64,000 nt of DNA from Streptococcus oralis (GTDB taxonomy: Bacteria > Bacillota > Bacilli > Lactobacillales > Streptococcaceae). The translations under genes were made by a program, and so were the position numbers. The stretch is from contig NZ_CP029257.1 in the NCBI RefSeq assembly GCF_024399415.1, forward strand, positions 643,501-707,500. The letters are read 5' to 3'. Shown here in pieces: positions 29,587 to 64,000 of the stretch (its first letter is position 1; every line of letters begins with the position of its first letter). Below the pieces are notes generated by a model. It saw nothing but the letters and a program-made list of their open reading frames with translations, made no database searches and was not told where the DNA came from.

Positions 29587-31545
29587 ATGAAAAAGTCTAA
29601 GGCCAAGTATCTGACACTTGCAAGTGTCGTGTTAAGCGCAGGTATCTTACTGAGCGCATGTGGAAATTCAAGTAGCGCTACTAAAACATATAACTATGTT
29701 TATTCGAACGATCCATCTAGTTTGAACTATCTTGCAGAAAACCGTGCAACAACCAATGACATCGTGACCAATTTGGTGGATGGGTTAATGGAAAATGACC
29801 AATATGGTAACTATGTTCCATCATTGGCAGAGGATTGGACTGTTTCTCAGGACGGTTTGACCTATACTTACAAATTGCGTAAGGATGCAAAATGGTATAC
29901 TTATGAGGGTGAAGAATACGCCCCTGTAACGGCCCAAGACTTTGTGACAGGTTTGAAATATGCTGCTGATAAAAAATCCGAAGCTTTGTACCTTGTTCAA
30001 GACTCGGTAGCAGGTTTGGATGACTATATCAACGGGAAAACAACTGACTTTTCAACTGTCGGTGTTAAGGCGATTGACGACCAAACGGTTCAGTACACTT
30101 TGACACGTCCAGAATCTTATTGGAATTCTAAAACAACTTCAACCATTCTCTTCCCTGTCAATGCAGATTTCTTAAAATCAAAAGGGGATGACTTTGGTAA
30201 GGTAGATCCTTCTAGTATTTTGTACAATGGACCTTTCTTAATGAAATCTTTTGTTTCAAAATCTGTTATCGAATTCAAGAAAAATCCCAACTACTGGGAT
30301 GAAAAGAATGTCTTTGTGGATGATGTGAAATTGGCCTATTATGATGGTAGTGACCAAGATGCACTAGCACGTAACTTTGTAGAAGGAGTCTATAGCTACG
30401 CGCGTCTCTATCCAAATAGCTCAAGCTTTGAAGGCATTAAAGAGAAGAACAAGGATAACATCATCTATAGTATGCAAAATGCAACTTCTTATTACTTGAA
30501 CTTCAACTTGGACAGAAAATCTTATAACTTCACTTCTAAGTCCTCTGATATCGAAAAGAAATCAACCCAAGAAGCAGTTCTTAATAAAAACTTCCGTCAA
30601 GCCTTCAACTATGCTTATAATCGTACAGCCTATGGAGCACAATCTCAAGGGGAGGACGGAGCAACGAAGATTATTCGTAACTTGGTTGTACCTCCAACAT
30701 TTGTAAGTATCAACGGAAAAGACTTTGGCGATGTTGTTTCAGAAAAGATGGTCAACTATGGCCAAGAATGGCAAGGAATCAACTTTGCAGATGCACAAGA
30801 TCCATACTACAATCCTGACAAGGCTAAAGCTAAATTTGCAGAAGCTAAGAAAGAATTGGAAGCTAAGGGTGTGCAATTCCCAATCCACTTGGATGTATCT
30901 GTAGACCAATCAGCTAAAAAAGGTGTACTTGAAGCAAGCTCTTTGAAACAATCCATCGAATCTGTTCTAGGAGCTGAGAATGTGGTTATCGATATCCAAC
31001 AGCTATCAACAGATGACTTTGACAACTCTAGCTACCTAGCTCAAACTGCAGCTCAAAAAGACTTTGATATCTATAATGGCGGTTGGAGTGCGGACTACTT
31101 GGATCCATCAAGTTATCTTGATATCTTAAATGTCAATAACGGTGGTATGTTGCAAAACATTGGTCTAGAACCAGGTGAGGTCAATGACAAGGCTAAGGCA
31201 GTTGGTCTGGATACTTACACTCAAATGTTAGAAGAAGCGAACAAGGAGCAAGATCCAGCAAAACGTTATGAAAAATATGCTGAAATTCAAGCTTGGCTCG
31301 TTGATAGCGCCCTTGCAATTCCAAACGTTTCTCAGGGTGGAACACCGACCTTGAGAAAGACAGTTCCATTCTCATCACCATTCTCACAAGCTGGAAATAA
31401 GGGTGTCGAATCATACAAGTATCTCAAGTTACAAGATAAGACTGTAACGGCTGATGAGTATGAAAAAGCTAAAGAAAAATGGCTAAAAGAAAAAGAAGAA
31501 TCAAATAAAAAAGCCCAAGAAGAACTGGCAAAACACGTTAAATAA
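29587..31545 (+). CDS. aliB: oligopeptide-binding lipoprotein AliB
   Basis: 652 residues, the same length as pneumococcal AliB. Signal peptide with lipobox LSAC (lipid-bearing Cys at about residue 25), then an SBP-5 (OppA-like) substrate-binding fold: SNDPSSLNYL, VTAQDFVTGLKYA, and the NGGWSADYLDPSSYLDI hinge. It captures peptides for the Ami oligopeptide permease; no permease genes are nearby, as for the pneumococcal orphan binding proteins. AliB-type proteins recognise foreign peptides and affect competence and colonisation. It has its own promoter and terminator. Confidence 0.93.
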   Translation: MKKSKAKYLTLASVVLSAGILLSACGNSSSATKTYNYVYSNDPSSLNYLAENRATTNDIVTNLVDGLMENDQYGNYVPSLAEDWTVSQDGLTYTYKLRKDAKWYTYEGEEYAPVTAQDFVTGLKYAADKKSEALYLVQDSVAGLDDYINGKTTDFSTVGVKAIDDQTVQYTLTRPESYWNSKTTSTILFPVNADFLKSKGDDFGKVDPSSILYNGPFLMKSFVSKSVIEFKKNPNYWDEKNVFVDDVKLAYYDGSDQDALARNFVEGVYSYARLYPNSSSFEGIKEKNKDNIIYSMQNATSYYLNFNLDRKSYNFTSKSSDIEKKSTQEAVLNKNFRQAFNYAYNRTAYGAQSQGEDGATKIIRNLVVPPTFVSINGKDFGDVVSEKMVNYGQEWQGINFADAQDPYYNPDKAKAKFAEAKKELEAKGVQFPIHLDVSVDQSAKKGVLEASSLKQSIESVLGAENVVIDIQQLSTDDFDNSSYLAQTAAQKDFDIYNGGWSADYLDPSSYLDILNVNNGGMLQNIGLEPGEVNDKAKAVGLDTYTQMLEEANKEQDPAKRYEKYAEIQAWLVDSALAIPNVSQGGTPTLRKTVPFSSPFSQAGNKGVESYKYLKLQDKTVTADEYEKAKEKWLKEKEESNKKAQEELAKHVK

Positions 31546-57015: not shown

Positions 57016-57127
57016 CTATGGATTTTTCAATTAAGTTTTAGATTTATTTGTTAATATTTGATTTGAAAGCAAAATTAAATATATGGTATACTATAAGTAT
57101 AAATCAATAAAAATAATGGAGATTTTT

Positions 57128-59650
57128 ATGAAAAAATCAAAAAAAATTTTAGTAACCAGCTTAGCAACTGCAACACTGGGACTTATTGCATTATCAGATA
57201 CAACTGGAGACTTTCCTTTTTCGGCTCAGCATGTTTCTGCTCAAGAAAAGGATGCATCTAAAAATGGTAAGGTTGTAAAAGAGAATACAACTTCGGCGTC
57301 AAATCAAGCTGAGAAATCAAAAACACCAGCGCAAAAACCTGCTGAGAAATCAAAAACACCAGCGCAAAAACCTGCTGAGAAACCAAAAACACCAGCGCAA
57401 AAACCTGCTGAGAAACCGAAAACACCAGCACAAAAACCTGCTGAGAAACCTAAAAATACAAGTCCTAAAGAGGATAAGTCCAAATCTACAGCTCAGTCTG
57501 GTTGGGTAGGCTCATCGTACTATGAAAATGGTACTAAAGTTACTAATAAGTGGATTTTTGATAAAAAAGCTAATTCTTATTTCTATCTAAATGCTTCGGG
57601 AAACTATGTCCAAAATACTTGGGAAGGCAATTACTATCTCAAATCAGATGGAAAGATGGCCAAGAATGAATGGATTTATGATAAGAAATACTCTGCTCAT
57701 TATTATTTAACAGGAGAAGGCAGCTACGCTCGTAATACATGGGTAGGTAATTACTATCTAAAATCAGATGGGAAGAGAGCTAAAAATGAATGGATTTATG
57801 ATACGAAATCGAGTTCATATTTTTATCTAACATCAGAAGGAAGTTCTGCTCGTAACACTTGGGTAGGAAATTACTACCTCAAATCAGATGGAAAGATGGC
57901 TAAGAATGAATGGATTTATGACAAAAACTACGGGTCATACTATTATCTAACAGCAGAAGGCAGCTACGCACGTAACAAATGGGTAGGTAATTACTATCTA
58001 AAATCAGATGGTAAGATGGCCAAAAATGAATGGGTAGATGGTGGCCGGTATTATGTTGATTCTGACGGAAAGATAGTAAAAAGTGAATGGATTTATGACA
58101 AAAACTATGGTTCCTATTATTATCTAACAGCAGAAGGCAGCTATGCTCGAAGCAAATGGGTCGGAAATTATTATCTCAAATCAGATGGTAGGATGGCTAA
58201 AAGTCAGTGGGTAGATGGTGGCCGTTATTATGTAGGAGACGATGGTTTGTGGCAACCAAAACCAGCGCCAAAGCCAGCACCAAAACCAGCTGAGAAACCA
58301 AAAACGCCAGCACCAAAACCAGCTGAGAAACCGAAAACGCCAGCACAAAAACCAGCTGAGAAACCGAAAACGCCAGCACAAAAACCTGCTGAGAAACCGA
58401 AAACACCAGCACAAAAACCTGCTGAGAAACCAAAAACACCAGCACCAAAACCGGCTGAAAAAACTAAAGAAACAACTCCTAAACAGGATAAATCACAATC
58501 TAAAGTTCAGTCTGTCTGGGTAGGAAATTACTACCTCAAATCAGATGGAAAGAGAGCTAAAAATGAATGGGTAGATGGTGGTCGTTATTATGTTGATTCT
58601 GATGGAAAAAAGGTTAAAAGTGACTGGATTTATGATAAAAACTATGGTTCATATTATTATCTAACAGCAGAAGGAAGCTCTGCTCGCAATAAATGGGTAG
58701 GAAATTATTACCTCAAATCAGATGGAAAGATGGCCAAGAATGAATGGGTAGATGGTGGCCGTTATTATGTTGAATCAGATGGTAAAATGGCTAGGGATAA
58801 ATGGGTAGATGGTGGCCGTCACTATGTAGACTACGATGGTGTGCGGCAACCAAAACTAGATGGGAAGCAGTACAATGCTGCTTTAAATAAAGCGAAAAGC
58901 TATAATTCGGTTTTACATATGTCAAAAAAAGATCTCTATAACCAATTAACGTGGAATGGTTTTTCAAGTTCAGTAGCGCAGTATGCCATCGATCACTTGA
59001 ATGCAGATTACAAAGCAAATGCCTTAATTACAGCAAGAGCATACCGAAAGAATAACCATTTATCAAAGACAGAGATTTATGAGTGGCTAACTTCTTCTTA
59101 TGTTGGAAAATTTACAAAAGAAGAAGCAAACTATGCAATTCAAAAACTTAATCTACCATCAGAAGGCAGCCAAGCTCGCAATAAATGGGTAGGAAATTAT
59201 TATTTCAAATCAGATGGAAAGATGGCCAAGAATGAATGGGTAGATGGTGGCCGTTACTATGTTGATTCTGAAGGCAAAATGGTAAGGGGCAAATGGGTAG
59301 ATGGTGGCCGTCACTATGTAGACTACGATGGTGTGCGGCAACCAAAACTAGATGGGAAGCAGTACAATGCTGCTTTAAATAAAGCGAAAAGCTATAATTC
59401 GGTTTTACATATGTCAAAAAAAGATCTCTATAACCAATTAACGTGGAATGGTTTTTCAAGTTCAGCAGCGCAGTATGCCATCGATCACTTGAATGCAGAT
59501 TACAAAGCAAATGCCTTAATTACAGCAAGAGCATACCGAAAGAATAACCATTTATCAAAGACAGAGATTTATGAGTGGCTAACTTCTTCTTATGTTGGAA
59601 AATTTACAAAAGAAGAAGCAAACTATGCAATTCAACATTTAGGTGACTAA
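57128..59650 (+). CDS. cbpL: CbpL-like choline-binding surface protein with duplicated Ltp domain
   Basis: 840 residues. Signal peptide (MKKSKKILVTSLATATLGLIAL, cut near VSAQE), two proline-rich spacers of PAEKPKTPAQ repeats (about 65-112 and 378-448), two blocks of choline-binding repeats of the GNYYLKSDGKMAKNEW type (about 125-375 and 450-575), and two copies of the Ltp domain (about 578-675 and 742-838; YNAALNKAKSYNS, SAVAQYAIDHL-like, KTEIYEWLTS). Pneumococcal CbpL at this position (upstream of gki) has Excalibur, choline repeats and one Ltp domain; no Excalibur domain is seen here. It should bind phosphocholine on teichoic acids. ATG 57128 has GGAG six bases upstream; earlier in-frame codons are not credible. 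Confidence 0.88.
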   Translation: MKKSKKILVTSLATATLGLIALSDTTGDFPFSAQHVSAQEKDASKNGKVVKENTTSASNQAEKSKTPAQKPAEKSKTPAQKPAEKPKTPAQKPAEKPKTPAQKPAEKPKNTSPKEDKSKSTAQSGWVGSSYYENGTKVTNKWIFDKKANSYFYLNASGNYVQNTWEGNYYLKSDGKMAKNEWIYDKKYSAHYYLTGEGSYARNTWVGNYYLKSDGKRAKNEWIYDTKSSSYFYLTSEGSSARNTWVGNYYLKSDGKMAKNEWIYDKNYGSYYYLTAEGSYARNKWVGNYYLKSDGKMAKNEWVDGGRYYVDSDGKIVKSEWIYDKNYGSYYYLTAEGSYARSKWVGNYYLKSDGRMAKSQWVDGGRYYVGDDGLWQPKPAPKPAPKPAEKPKTPAPKPAEKPKTPAQKPAEKPKTPAQKPAEKPKTPAQKPAEKPKTPAPKPAEKTKETTPKQDKSQSKVQSVWVGNYYLKSDGKRAKNEWVDGGRYYVDSDGKKVKSDWIYDKNYGSYYYLTAEGSSARNKWVGNYYLKSDGKMAKNEWVDGGRYYVESDGKMARDKWVDGGRHYVDYDGVRQPKLDGKQYNAALNKAKSYNSVLHMSKKDLYNQLTWNGFSSSVAQYAIDHLNADYKANALITARAYRKNNHLSKTEIYEWLTSSYVGKFTKEEANYAIQKLNLPSEGSQARNKWVGNYYFKSDGKMAKNEWVDGGRYYVDSEGKMVRGKWVDGGRHYVDYDGVRQPKLDGKQYNAALNKAKSYNSVLHMSKKDLYNQLTWNGFSSSAAQYAIDHLNADYKANALITARAYRKNNHLSKTEIYEWLTSSYVGKFTKEEANYAIQHLGD
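58799..59143 (+). repeat. 345-base internal duplication in cbpL, copy 1
   Basis: Covers the last choline-type unit and the first Ltp domain. Identical to copy 2, 492 bases downstream, except for one base I could find (Val codon GTA against Ala GCA). Confidence 0.9.
59291..59635 (+). repeat. 345-base internal duplication in cbpL, copy 2
   Basis: Second copy, ending five codons before the stop. Near-identity at the DNA level, including silent positions, indicates a recent duplication or gene conversion. Confidence 0.9.
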
Positions 59651-60833: not shown

Positions 60834-61673
60834 ATGACAAAAGCTGATACGATTTTTAAAAAAAATATTGAACGAATCCTCAAAGACGGTGTCTTTTCTG
60901 AGCAGGCTCGTCCCAAGTACAAGGATGGGACTGTTGCCAACTCCAAGTACGTAACGGGTGCCTTTGCCGAGTATGATTTGTCTAAGGGCGAATTTCCCAT
61001 CACAACCTTGCGGCCCATTGCAATCAAATCCGCCATCAAGGAAGTGCTCTGGATCTACCAAGATCAGTCTAATAGTCTAGAAGTTCTCAATGACAAGTAC
61101 AATGTTCATTACTGGAATGATTGGGAAGTGGGAGACACGGGAACCATTGGTGAGCGCTATGGGGCGGTCGTTAAGAAACACGACATCATCAATAAGATTC
61201 TCAAACAGTTGGAAGCCAATCCTTGGAATCGTCGCAATATCATCTCACTCTGGGATTACCAAGCATTTGAGGAGACAGACGGCCTCCTTCCATGCGCCTT
61301 TCAGACCATGTTTGATGTCCGTCGCGTTGATGGGGAAATCTATCTGGATGCGACCTTGACCCAGCGTTCTAACGATATGTTGGTGGCCCACCACATTAAC
61401 GCTATGCAGTACGTGGCTCTTCAAATGATGATTGCCAAGCATTTTGGATGGAAGGTTGGGAAGTTTTTCTATTTTATCAACAACCTTCATATCTATGATA
61501 ATCAGTTTGAACAAGCTGAGGAATTGCTCCGTCGTGAGCCGTCAAACTGCCAACCACGCTTGGTTTTAAATGTTCCTGATGGGACCAATTTCTTTGATAT
61601 CAAAGCAGAAGACTTTGAGTTGGTTGACTATGATCCGGTTAAGCCACAGCTGAAGTTTGATTTGGCTATTTAA
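60834..61673 (+). CDS. thyA: thymidylate synthase
   Basis: 279 residues: [34 protein letters not shown] (phosphate-binding Arg), catalytic Cys in [10 protein letters not shown] (about residue 153), [35 protein letters not shown] and NNLHIYDNQ. It methylates dUMP with methylene-tetrahydrofolate. It starts with GAGGTGAGAG upstream, 98 bases after gki. It is the last housekeeping gene before the RiPP region. Confidence 0.96.
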
Positions 61674-62147: not shown

Positions 62148-62219
62148 TTATCCAACTCCGATAATAATAATTCCTTCTAGTAAAAAGAGTAGGAGTGGTA
62201 ATATTTTTTGTTTTTTCAT
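62148..62219 (-). CDS. short hydrophobic peptide pheromone precursor (SHP)
   Basis: A 23-codon gene divergent from the rgg gene. It encodes a basic start (MKKQK), a hydrophobic middle, an acidic residue Glu15 and the C-terminus EGIIIIGVG. This is the standard layout of SHP pheromones of Rgg regulators; the mature peptide is expected to be the last eight or nine residues from Glu15, after export by PptAB, cleavage by Eep-type protease and re-import by the Ami permease (established for other SHPs). GAGGA is seven bases before the ATG on the minus strand; TATAAT lies at 62252-62247 without a good -35, as expected for an Rgg-activated promoter. Confidence 0.88.
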   Translation of the reverse strand: MKKQKILPLLLFLLEGIIIIGVG

Positions 62220-62308
62220 GTGTAATCCTCACTTTTGTTTTTTTTTATTATATGTTATTATTGGGGTGAATAAAATATATTCCCATATATGCGTGATGGA
62301 GGTTCAGA
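62220..62308. promoter_or_regulatory. shp-rgg intergenic control region
   Basis: 89 bases between two divergent starts. Leftward: TATAAT (62252-62247) and GAGGA for shp. Rightward: TAAAAT (62271-62276) as a possible -10 and GGAGG (62298-62302) for rgg. A T-run of nine (62238-62246) and the stretch GGGGTGAATAAAATATATTCCC (imperfect dyad GGGtGAATA / TATATTCCC, 62264-62283) may be the Rgg-binding site. Confidence 0.5.
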
Positions 62309-63199
62309 ATGAAAAATTTTGGAGAAATTTTTAAAAAGTTTAGAGAATCAAGAGGATTGCGGTTAAAGGATCTCACGAAGGATGGTATATCAACATCTCA
62401 GCTTTCACGTTTCGAAAAAGGAGAAACGGATTTAACCATTTCAAAGTTTATACATATTCTAAATGAAATTAATATGCCAATTGATGAATTTATGTATGCC
62501 GTTCATGATTTTCATCGTGATGAACTAAATGAACTATTAGCTCAGGTTAGGAAATATGTAACGACTCGCGACATTGAAGGGATGAAGAGATTGTTGATAT
62601 CTCAAATGGAAAATGAAGGAAAACGAGAGAAATTTCATCATATAAATACCATTTTAGTTAAAATTCGTCTTCAGGATTTATCGGGAGAAAAATACTATAA
62701 TGAAACAGATTTGAATGATTTAACCGATTATCTATTTGGTGTTGAATATTGGGGATATTATGAATTGTTGATTTTCATGAATACTTTGGATGTTCTAAAA
62801 CATGATGTTTTTATGGTTTTAGCAAGAGAAATGTCTAGACGATCAGATTTTTATAAAGAAATTCCTATTAATCGACGCCTGATTTCAACCATGTTGCTTA
62901 ATGCTTATATTACCTGTATTGAAAAGAAAAAGTTTATGGATGCTTTGTATTTTGAAAAACAATTGAAACAATGCTTTTTTATCGAGATAGAAATTTATGA
63001 AAGACTCATTTTTCTCTATGCTCAAAACCTTTATCGCTATCAAAAAAACGGAAATAAGATTGCAATTATTGAAATGAAAAAATGTATTGGAGCAATAAAA
63101 TTAGCAGGCAGTAACCACTTAGCAAAGATTTATGAAGGACATTTAAAAAAAGTTTTAGGGGAGGACAGTCATCAAGCAGATATGGGAAAGAAATTTTGA
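62309..63199 (+). CDS. rgg: Rgg-family transcriptional regulator (SHP-responsive)
   Basis: 296 residues, normal for Rgg. N-terminal HTH (about 5-60): FKKFRESRGLRLKDLTKDGISTSQLSRFEKGETDLT, and the rest is an all-helical TPR-like peptide-binding domain, as in Rgg/RNPP regulators. The divergent shp gene and the RiPP precursor downstream (51 bases after the stop) make it the pheromone-controlled switch of this cluster. In known pairs the re-imported SHP binds the C-terminal domain and turns on both shp and the target operon. The base composition is A+T-richer than that of the upstream housekeeping genes. Confidence 0.92.
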   Translation: MKNFGEIFKKFRESRGLRLKDLTKDGISTSQLSRFEKGETDLTISKFIHILNEINMPIDEFMYAVHDFHRDELNELLAQVRKYVTTRDIEGMKRLLISQMENEGKREKFHHINTILVKIRLQDLSGEKYYNETDLNDLTDYLFGVEYWGYYELLIFMNTLDVLKHDVFMVLAREMSRRSDFYKEIPINRRLISTMLLNAYITCIEKKKFMDALYFEKQLKQCFFIEIEIYERLIFLYAQNLYRYQKNGNKIAIIEMKKCIGAIKLAGSNHLAKIYEGHLKKVLGEDSHQADMGKKF

Positions 63200-63212
63200 C
63201 TGAACTATTGAA

Positions 63213-63250
63213 TGATATAATCATATCATCAAATAAAGGAGGATAATAAA
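63213..63250 (+). promoter_or_regulatory. promoter and ribosome site of the RiPP precursor
   Basis: Extended -10 TGA-TATAAT (63213-63221). The only TTGACT upstream (63196-63201) is at 14 bases, too short for a normal -35, which fits activation by Rgg. AAAGGAGG (63236-63243) is a strong ribosome site seven bases before the ATG. Confidence 0.65.
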
Positions 63251-63355
63251 ATGGATAATCTCAAAATTATCGATTTGGAAGAATTACTAGCCAATAAATC
63301 AGCCTATGTTATTCATGATTGCGGCCCTAGTCATTCTTGTGGTGGAGGTCGGTAA
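63251..63355 (+). CDS. sactipeptide-type RiPP precursor (GGG / streptosactin-like)
   Basis: 34 codons: acidic, hydrophobic leader (MDNLKIIDLEELLANKSAYV) and a C-terminal core with DCGPSHSCGGGR. Cys24 and Cys30 each start a four-residue unit, C-G-P-S (24-27) and C-G-G-G (30-33), then Arg34. Streptosactin, described from streptococcal GGG-type clusters, has two consecutive, non-nested four-residue Cys-to-alpha-carbon rings, so Cys24-Ser27 and Cys30-Gly33 are the predicted links. It sits directly between rgg and a radical SAM gene. Too short for usual gene callers. Precise product, cleavage site and activity are inferred. Confidence 0.9.
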   Translation: MDNLKIIDLEELLANKSAYVIHDCGPSHSCGGGR

Positions 63356-63376
63356 CGACTATCTTATTTTTATTGT

Positions 63377-63399
63377 GAGAGGGATTTTTATTCCCTCTC
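63377..63399 (+). promoter_or_regulatory. hairpin between precursor and radical SAM gene
   Basis: GAGAGGGA / TCCCTCTC, eight perfect pairs, seven-base T-rich loop, no T tract after it. Probably a partial terminator or 3' stabiliser that yields much precursor mRNA and less enzyme mRNA. Confidence 0.6.
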
Positions 63400-63422
63400 T
63401 ATGTTATATAGGGGGAATAATT

Positions 63423-64000
63423 ATGTTAAAAGCATTTATTACAGAATCTGATACTCTTTATTTTAATTCTGAAACCTTTACTTTATCAACTTCAATAGAT
63501 GATTTGAATAATAATATCAAAAAAGAAAACGATTATAATATTTTAAAAAAAGTAGTAATCAATATTTCAAATAACTGTAATCTTTCATGTACATACTGCT
63601 ATGCTGATGGTGGTAATTACGGAATGATGAATCAACTGATGAATATTGATACAGCAGATAAAATTATTGATCAGCTAGTCTCTCGCAGAATTCAATGTAT
63701 CAAGAGATTAATCCTTTTTGGAGGCGAGCCGTTTTTAAATATTGATTTGTTTGTTTATATTATTGAAAAGCTATCTAAAAATATTGAGATTCAAAAAATT
63801 GAAACTGTGACAAATGGTACCATCTTAAATAAGAAAGTTGAAATGATGATTAACAATTATCATCCTTTTTTAACAGTTAGCCTTGATGGCCCACAATTGA
63901 TTCACGATAAGTTAAGAGGCAAGGGAAGTCATAGACGAACATTGAATTTTATTCAGTATTTAAAAGAAATAGATTACGAAAATTTTGAAGTCGCTTCTAC
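63423..64000 (+). CDS. radical SAM RiPP maturase (sactisynthase type), 3' end outside window
   Basis: 192 codons are visible. N-terminal 45 residues could hold a leader-recognition part. The radical SAM cluster motif is CNLSCTYCY (Cys52, Cys56, Cys59), the SAM-binding LILFGGEPFL is at 97-106, and TVTNGTIL and TVSLDGPQ are the typical strand 4 and 5 motifs of the SPASM/Twitch-type peptide maturases. It should install the thioether links in the preceding precursor. It starts with TAGGGGGAATAATT before the ATG, 67 bases after the precursor stop. Auxiliary cluster cysteines should be in the missing C-terminal half, as should protease and exporter genes downstream. Confidence 0.9.
   Translation, partial: MLKAFITESDTLYFNSETFTLSTSIDDLNNNIKKENDYNILKKVVINISNNCNLSCTYCYADGGNYGMMNQLMNIDTADKIIDQLVSRRIQCIKRLILFGGEPFLNIDLFVYIIEKLSKNIEIQKIETVTNGTILNKKVEMMINNYHPFLTVSLDGPQLIHDKLRGKGSHRRTLNFIQYLKEIDYENFEVAS

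Follow-up and report, generated by a model that had tools for sequence, protein, structure and literature searches.

Streptosactin is an already known streptococcal growth inhibitor, a small ring-shaped peptide encoded in Streptococcus thermophilus JIM8232 by the ggg genes and an shp/rgg pair listed as 'Sthermo_13'. Its mature form, NASCGPSHSCGGGR, is reported with a mass shift of -4.0313 (PMC12445099), and the published links join Cys25 to Ser28 and Cys31 to Gly34 (one passage of the same paper prints Cys15; PMC8172795). In S. thermophilus, streptosactin inhibits both its producer and close kin of the producer (PMC13361665, PMC8172795). Further GGG clusters, of the same class as the one described here, are listed as 'other streptosactins' for S. 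oralis, S. gordonii, S. parasanguinis, and S. constellatus in a table of PMC13361665, where they carry the entry 'function not characterized'. A pneumococcal sactipeptide cluster that received the name 'streptosactin' in 2018 was reported from 1 of 571 genomes, with a G+C content of 25.5% (PMC6120550). It has in common with the present cluster the name, the predicted sactipeptide product, and the low G+C content, a likeness by description only.

The window analyzed here is a stretch of 64,000 nucleotides from S. oralis (G000:C1:643501-707500 of a single-contig genome of 2,002,022 bases). At its 3' end begins what is, with very little doubt, a complete streptosactin (GGG-class) cluster located between thyA and miaA, which is predicted to be switched by SHP/Rgg and to yield a peptide modified by GggB and exported by GggC.

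Gene content, insertion site, and conservation of the cluster

The cluster starts with two divergent genes: shp (positions 62148-62219, minus strand), an open reading frame (ORF) whose translation is the 23-aa pheromone precursor MKKQKILPLLLFLLEGIIIIGVG, and rgg (62309-63199, plus strand), which encodes a 296-aa SHP-responsive regulator with matches to Rgg_C (PF21259, 206.2 bits) and TIGR01716 (159.9 bits). The two genes are separated by 89 bases, an intergenic promoter region common to both. The streptosactin precursor gene gggA (63251-63355, plus strand), coding for the 34-residue peptide MDNLKIIDLEELLANKSAYVIHDCGPSHSCGGGR, is found 51 bases past rgg. It is followed by the 5' part of gggB (63423..64000, plus strand), the gene for a radical SAM maturase (NF050038; Radical_SAM, PF04055) that starts with the ATG at 63423 and is interrupted by the end of the window. 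The first-pass annotation had named a divergent shp and rgg, a 34-codon precursor gene 51 bases behind rgg, and a radical SAM gene after it; the ORFs bear this out, and the last of these genes is complete in the genome. There it encodes 398 aa from the ATG and extends, stop included, to G000:C1:708119, overlapping by 8 bases with gggC (G000:C1:708112-709656, beyond the window; NF050039), which encodes a 514-aa ABC transporter.

Past position 64000, the first-pass annotation had suggested looking for the rest of the maturase, an ABC exporter, and a protease. The first two are present, but the ORF list holds no protease gene downstream of gggC, where a small minus-strand ORF and then miaA are found. 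Pfam searches show membrane and ATPase domains in GggC and no peptidase domain. A figure legend of PMC8172795 names GggC a protease; contrary to that legend, its sequence points to a transporter.

All three ggg products score above the cut-offs of the curated NCBIfam equivalog models for streptosactin, GggB, and GggC: the precursor with 79.9 bits (NF050037, cut-off 50), GggB with 785.9 bits (NF050038, cut-off 650), and GggC with 918.8 bits (NF050039, cut-off 750). GggB contains a CxxxCxxC motif at residues 53-60 of its 399-residue frame and a Cys-rich C terminus, and Pfam searches find no SPASM match in it. The earlier observation of the cluster was thus real and its assignment to an SHP/Rgg-linked GGG class right, with a promoter box (see below) joining shp to gggA; the cluster is one more variant of the published streptosactin family.

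The divergent shp/rgg arrangement is the one seen in S. thermophilus JIM8232. The comparison with S. thermophilus can be anchored on the G142 locus (L035), since this locus encodes both the published streptosactin 14-mer and the exact published SHP precursor. Its gene order is that of the cluster in the window, whose GggB and GggC are, respectively, 65% and 53% identical to their counterparts there. Unlike the cluster in the window, the G142 locus has no adjoining thyA or miaA match.

The upstream flank of the cluster is thyA (60834..61673, plus strand). In three other genomes (G001, G002, and G003), thyA and miaA nearly adjoin, with a gap of 315 to 484 bases and no cluster, so the cluster represents an insertion. 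Among the 19 thyA stretches examined, the window's own included, rgg follows thyA in 2 (the window's genome and G007), miaA follows it in 3, and neither is found within about 1.5 kb in 14. The G+C content of the cluster is 30.7%, versus 41.1% for the window. The same thyA-miaA site is occupied by the four closest copies (G048, G007, G266, and G115), whose precursors are 97 to 100% identical, and the one named locus among the near-identical ones retrieved is from 'Streptococcus sp. Marseille-Q5986', which does not by itself support the first-pass assignment to the mitis group. Elsewhere in the window, an 855-aa ORF (57083-59650) contains many W/Y/G repeats that we take to be choline-binding-like, along with PAEKPKTPA repeats rich in proline and a C-terminal module that is itself repeated.

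Among the 284 Streptococcus species genomes searched, 16 have gggB and 15 the gggA precursor. Each of the 16 clusters shows the same 8-base overlap of gggB and gggC. GggB relatives at E <= 1e-60 make up 28 protein clusters among 5.8 billion proteins, and those named by organism are streptococcal. The sequence CGPSHSCGGG is invariant in all 15 precursors, followed by a final Arg in 14 and a Gly in one (L029, from G219, which ends in GGGG instead of GGGR). The leaders vary, with a mean identity of 57% over the first 16 residues and 8 distinct sequences.

Promoter boxes, pheromone, and predicted peptide

Alignment of the shp-rgg gap and of the rgg 3' end before gggA across the clusters reveals a single element at both places, i.e., before shp and before gggA. 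In the window, the shp promoter (62247..62292, minus strand) contains the box GCATATATGGGAA at 62280-62292, and the gggA promoter (63176..63221, plus strand) contains the box GCAGATATGGGAA at 63176-63188, within the 3' end of rgg; each box precedes a TATAAT by exactly 27 bases. A genome search that allowed 24 to 30 bases between box and TATAAT finds the GCANATATGGGAA box followed by TATAAT, at a distance of 27 bases, at exactly two sites in 2.0 Mb, those before shp and gggA, and the same pattern read backwards has zero matches in the genome. This count is not independent evidence, since the pattern was written from those two sites, and conservation across the clusters is therefore the stronger support. 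The -10 element was taken as the best hexamer within a 12-position range, with 5 or 6 of its 6 positions matching. It stands 26 to 27 bases from GGGAA in every one of the 15 gggA promoters and in 13 of the 16 shp promoters. For the remaining three shp promoters, the first-choice hexamer is 21 to 22 bases away, and a second hexamer of equal quality lies at 26 or 27. In shuffled versions of the window, at least two copies of the box with no more than one mismatch are found in 6 of 100, which means that the box alone is not a rare sequence. Four loci from four species (L031 to L034) carry the same altered box, GTGTATAAGGGAA, in both their shp and gggA promoters, which is expected if one regulator reads both sites. 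At L036, the two boxes agree little beyond GGGAA.

The predicted mature SHP, EGIIIIGVG, is one residue apart from the published SHP of the S. thermophilus streptosactin locus, EGIIVIGVG (PMC12445099). The 23-mer encoded by shp is identical in all four near-identical loci (L025 to L028). The loci L031, L032, L033, and L034 (G189, G226, G225, and G100, respectively) encode the SHP MNKKLFFYLSLVILGGIIVIGVG, in which Gly replaces the Glu of the other SHPs in this set, and the SHP of L029 (G219), MKNQKLLPLLFLLFEGIIIIVVG, is the one listed for another S. thermophilus Rgg, Sthermo_14 (PMC12445099). Also encoded in the window's genome are an M50 protease, a member of the family of Eep (418-aa frame), four SBP_bac_5 oligopeptide-binding proteins, and four Rgg_C proteins above the cut-off, among which the Rgg of the window scores highest. 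An SBP_bac_5 protein encoded at positions 29812-31140 of the window is a possible part of an SHP importer.

The precursor core fits the pattern CxxSxxCxxG. The first-pass annotation had proposed a comparison with published GGG-type sequences, and the C-terminal 11 residues, CGPSHSCGGGR, turn out to be those of S. thermophilus streptosactin. Ahead of the rings, the window's precursor has the tripeptide IHD where S. thermophilus has NAS, and cleavage may therefore occur at a different site. From the published spacing, the links in GggA are predicted to be Cys24-Ser27 and Cys30-Gly33. If cleavage is similar to that in S. thermophilus, the product would be about 14 residues long and consist of the precursor C terminus, IHDCGPSHSCGGGR, minus 4 H, with a predicted [M+H]+ of 1378.54 and a computed [M+2H]2+ of 689.77; the two thioether links would account for -4.03 Da.

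The proposed course of events is as follows. In the strain of the window, the SHP would leave the cell, be trimmed, probably by a protease of the Eep type, and be taken up again to bind Rgg. Rgg would then act at the box before shp, producing positive feedback, and also at the box before gggA-gggB-gggC. GggB would then form the two thioether rings with loss of four hydrogens, the leader would be removed by an unlinked protease, and the product would be exported by GggC, which lacks a peptidase domain. Judging from the published S. thermophilus work, the -4 Da peptide may have antibacterial or fratricidal activity, as the first-pass annotation had supposed.

Stand-alone gggC genes and their origin

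At E <= 1e-100, gggC is found in 65 of the 284 genomes, with 66 genes in all, of which the window's genome has two; scoring was limited to the top five candidates of each genome, so further copies could be missed. Sixteen of these genes accompany gggB and 50 do not; all 50 stand-alone copies were taken with their flanks. One of the 50, L102 (G040), is rejected as GggC proper (44% identity, 497.7 bits, below the cut-off of 750) and was left out of the set of 49, which includes 48 genes in other species and one in the window's genome. The latter gene (locus L085; G000:C1:525025-526569, minus strand) lies between a GntR/ABC operon and lrgBA and is 56 to 57% identical to the gggC of the cluster. 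A protein cluster 87% identical to the L085 product, named from S. mitis, includes 6,764 sequences, not all of which are necessarily stand-alone.

Intact reading frames are found in 45 of the 49 copies; the genes at L088, L101, L133, and L134 are not open (nor is L102). All 45 intact copies match NF050039 at E <= 1e-150, and the scores read for 18 of them range from 840 to 909 bits, above 750. Across the 45, there is no variation in the LSGGE and ILADE-type residues or in most of the ATP-binding loop. For pairs with dS between 0.05 and 1.5 (others were omitted), the median dN/dS is 0.103 among the stand-alone copies (358 of 990 pairs) and 0.107 among the cluster copies (7 of 120 pairs). Such low values, about 0.10, indicate that stand-alone gggC is kept by selection. 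Because NF050039 scores stand-alone copies above its cut-off, the name 'streptosactin export ABC transporter' overcalls producers, and this annotation is no proof that a species makes streptosactin.

The flanks retrieved for the 50 stand-alone copies contain no radical SAM ORF (at least 250 codons, with CxxxCxxC); they are unequal in length, with only 153 bases downstream at L115. A similar scan of the clusters (gggC strand, 2.5 kb) detects such an ORF in 15 of 16, missing only the decayed L039. The idea that stand-alone gggC belongs to another radical SAM RiPP cluster was therefore rejected, and these genes appear to have no local substrate.

In 18 of the 50 stand-alone loci, the end of gggB, e.g., KERLSKLVNNFRRFIRYA followed by a stop, directly precedes gggC. 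These tails score 54 to 90, whereas 200 control stretches taken from the same loci score 28 at most. Their offset is the same in 17 of the 18 and differs by one base at L088, where the start of gggC had to be extrapolated past a break. The match at L098 is weak (33, in another register, against the control maximum of 28) and is not among the 18. Some of the tails (L086, L087, and L131) contain stop codons, and the tail may survive by overlapping the translation start of gggC. At L088, gggC is broken and an intact shp lies close upstream of it; rgg and gggA are gone, as is the greater part of gggB. At another site, L039 is a half-decayed cluster and L087 consists of only gggC and the gggB tail. 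In a protein tree, the cluster and stand-alone copies are intermixed, with 8 changes of state; the tree was built with a quick method and SH-aLRT only, has 25 weak inner branches out of 60, and is rooted on the long branch of L102. Taken together, the gggB tails, the mixed tree, and the matches to the equivalog model indicate that the stand-alone copies descend from ggg clusters: the cluster was lost and the transporter retained.

A similar state has been described for the ryptide locus of S. thermophilus, of which only the transporter is kept in 264 of 265 strains (PMC12445099); like stand-alone gggC, this is a transporter without a precursor and radical SAM gene. Ryptide represents another RiPP class in a single species, and shp/rgg is present there, whereas ggg loci usually keep gggC alone.

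Possible functions of the retained transporter

Being often kept alone after cluster loss, the exporter may be the self-protection gene that has been missing. It is proposed that a retained GggC most simply pumps out streptosactin arriving from neighbors. GggC could then also be a streptosactin protection gene, with streptococci repeatedly dropping the pheromone, precursor, and maturase and keeping gggC, a reading that is tentative and possible rather than probable. The contrasting view, that stand-alone GggC is kept for an unrelated job, such as export of another peptide, and that the GggC of the cluster is only an exporter, comes close to an even chance. At 1 uM, streptosactin inhibits its S. 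thermophilus producer completely (PMC13361665), which is strong evidence against protection, since the producing locus class carries gggC. For the related peptide tryglysin, self-inhibition was termed paradoxical and a test for SHP-induced immunity was negative (PMC8092268). An unrelated job would also agree with the presence of 28 of the 50 stand-alone copies at one fixed site, like a housekeeping gene. It is harder to reconcile with the gggB tail in 18 of the 50, the mixing of both kinds of copies in the tree, the matches of all 45 intact copies to the GggC model (above 750 bits in the 18 with scores read), and flanks free of radical SAM ORFs at all 50, although all of this leaves room for a second, older substrate. 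Protection that is weak, protection confined to cells expressing gggC, and an unrelated substrate are all conceivable.

Gene numbering had suggested, as an assumption of ours, that SP_1717 (qsrA) might be a stand-alone gggC. A competence link of stand-alone gggC was rejected: in the 350 bases upstream of the 50 copies, the best match to the ComE repeat is 15 of 18, with four positions free. SP_1717 itself appears in published lists as an ABC transporter that has a ComE box (PMC6001120, PMC5295010).

The fixed site also allows for a different history. The full cluster is found at this nrdR-gntR-ABC-lrgAB site in only two species (L037 and L038), and none of the 28 stand-alone copies there, which include that of the window's genome and have at least one of the same neighbors, is preceded by a gggB tail. 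Stand-alone gggC might be ancestral at lrgAB, the clusters having arisen there by capture of shp-rgg-gggA-gggB. Such an origin is unlikely in view of the 8-base gggB/gggC overlap, which is the same in all 16 clusters, both of those at lrgAB included. Other sites show loss directly (L088 with its remaining shp; L087 beside L039), and the 8 changes of state in the tree are more simply explained by recurrent loss than by the same assembly having taken place several times. Loss of the cluster with retention of the transporter is the preferred reading for this site, too.

Full clusters show decay as well. G130 retains only rgg 1-95 and gggB 194-399, and its precursor was not found; in G128, rgg is broken and the gggB match begins at residue 40; and G115, one of the four closest copies, is possibly damaged, as its gggB match begins only at residue 25-26. 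That the cluster in the window is silent or a decaying remnant like these, a notion also in line with the detection of S. thermophilus streptosactin only after 250-fold concentration (PMC12445099), is improbable, given that all its genes are open, both promoter boxes are exact, and the four closest copies share its site and have nearly the same precursor.

The review that describes streptosactin as a putative fratricidal agent names no immunity gene in that context (PMC13361665). Searches by title and abstract found no publication on stand-alone gggC or streptosactin immunity, which is no proof of absence. The transporter-only pattern is what a specialist might not expect. If GggC does protect the cell, immune nonproducers would exceed producers by about three to one among species (48 versus 15 with a precursor). 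In the window's strain, a stand-alone gggC is present at another site in addition to the full acquired cluster. The transporter-only loci bear on self-inhibition by pheromone-controlled RaS-RiPPs and on where protection against them is encoded.
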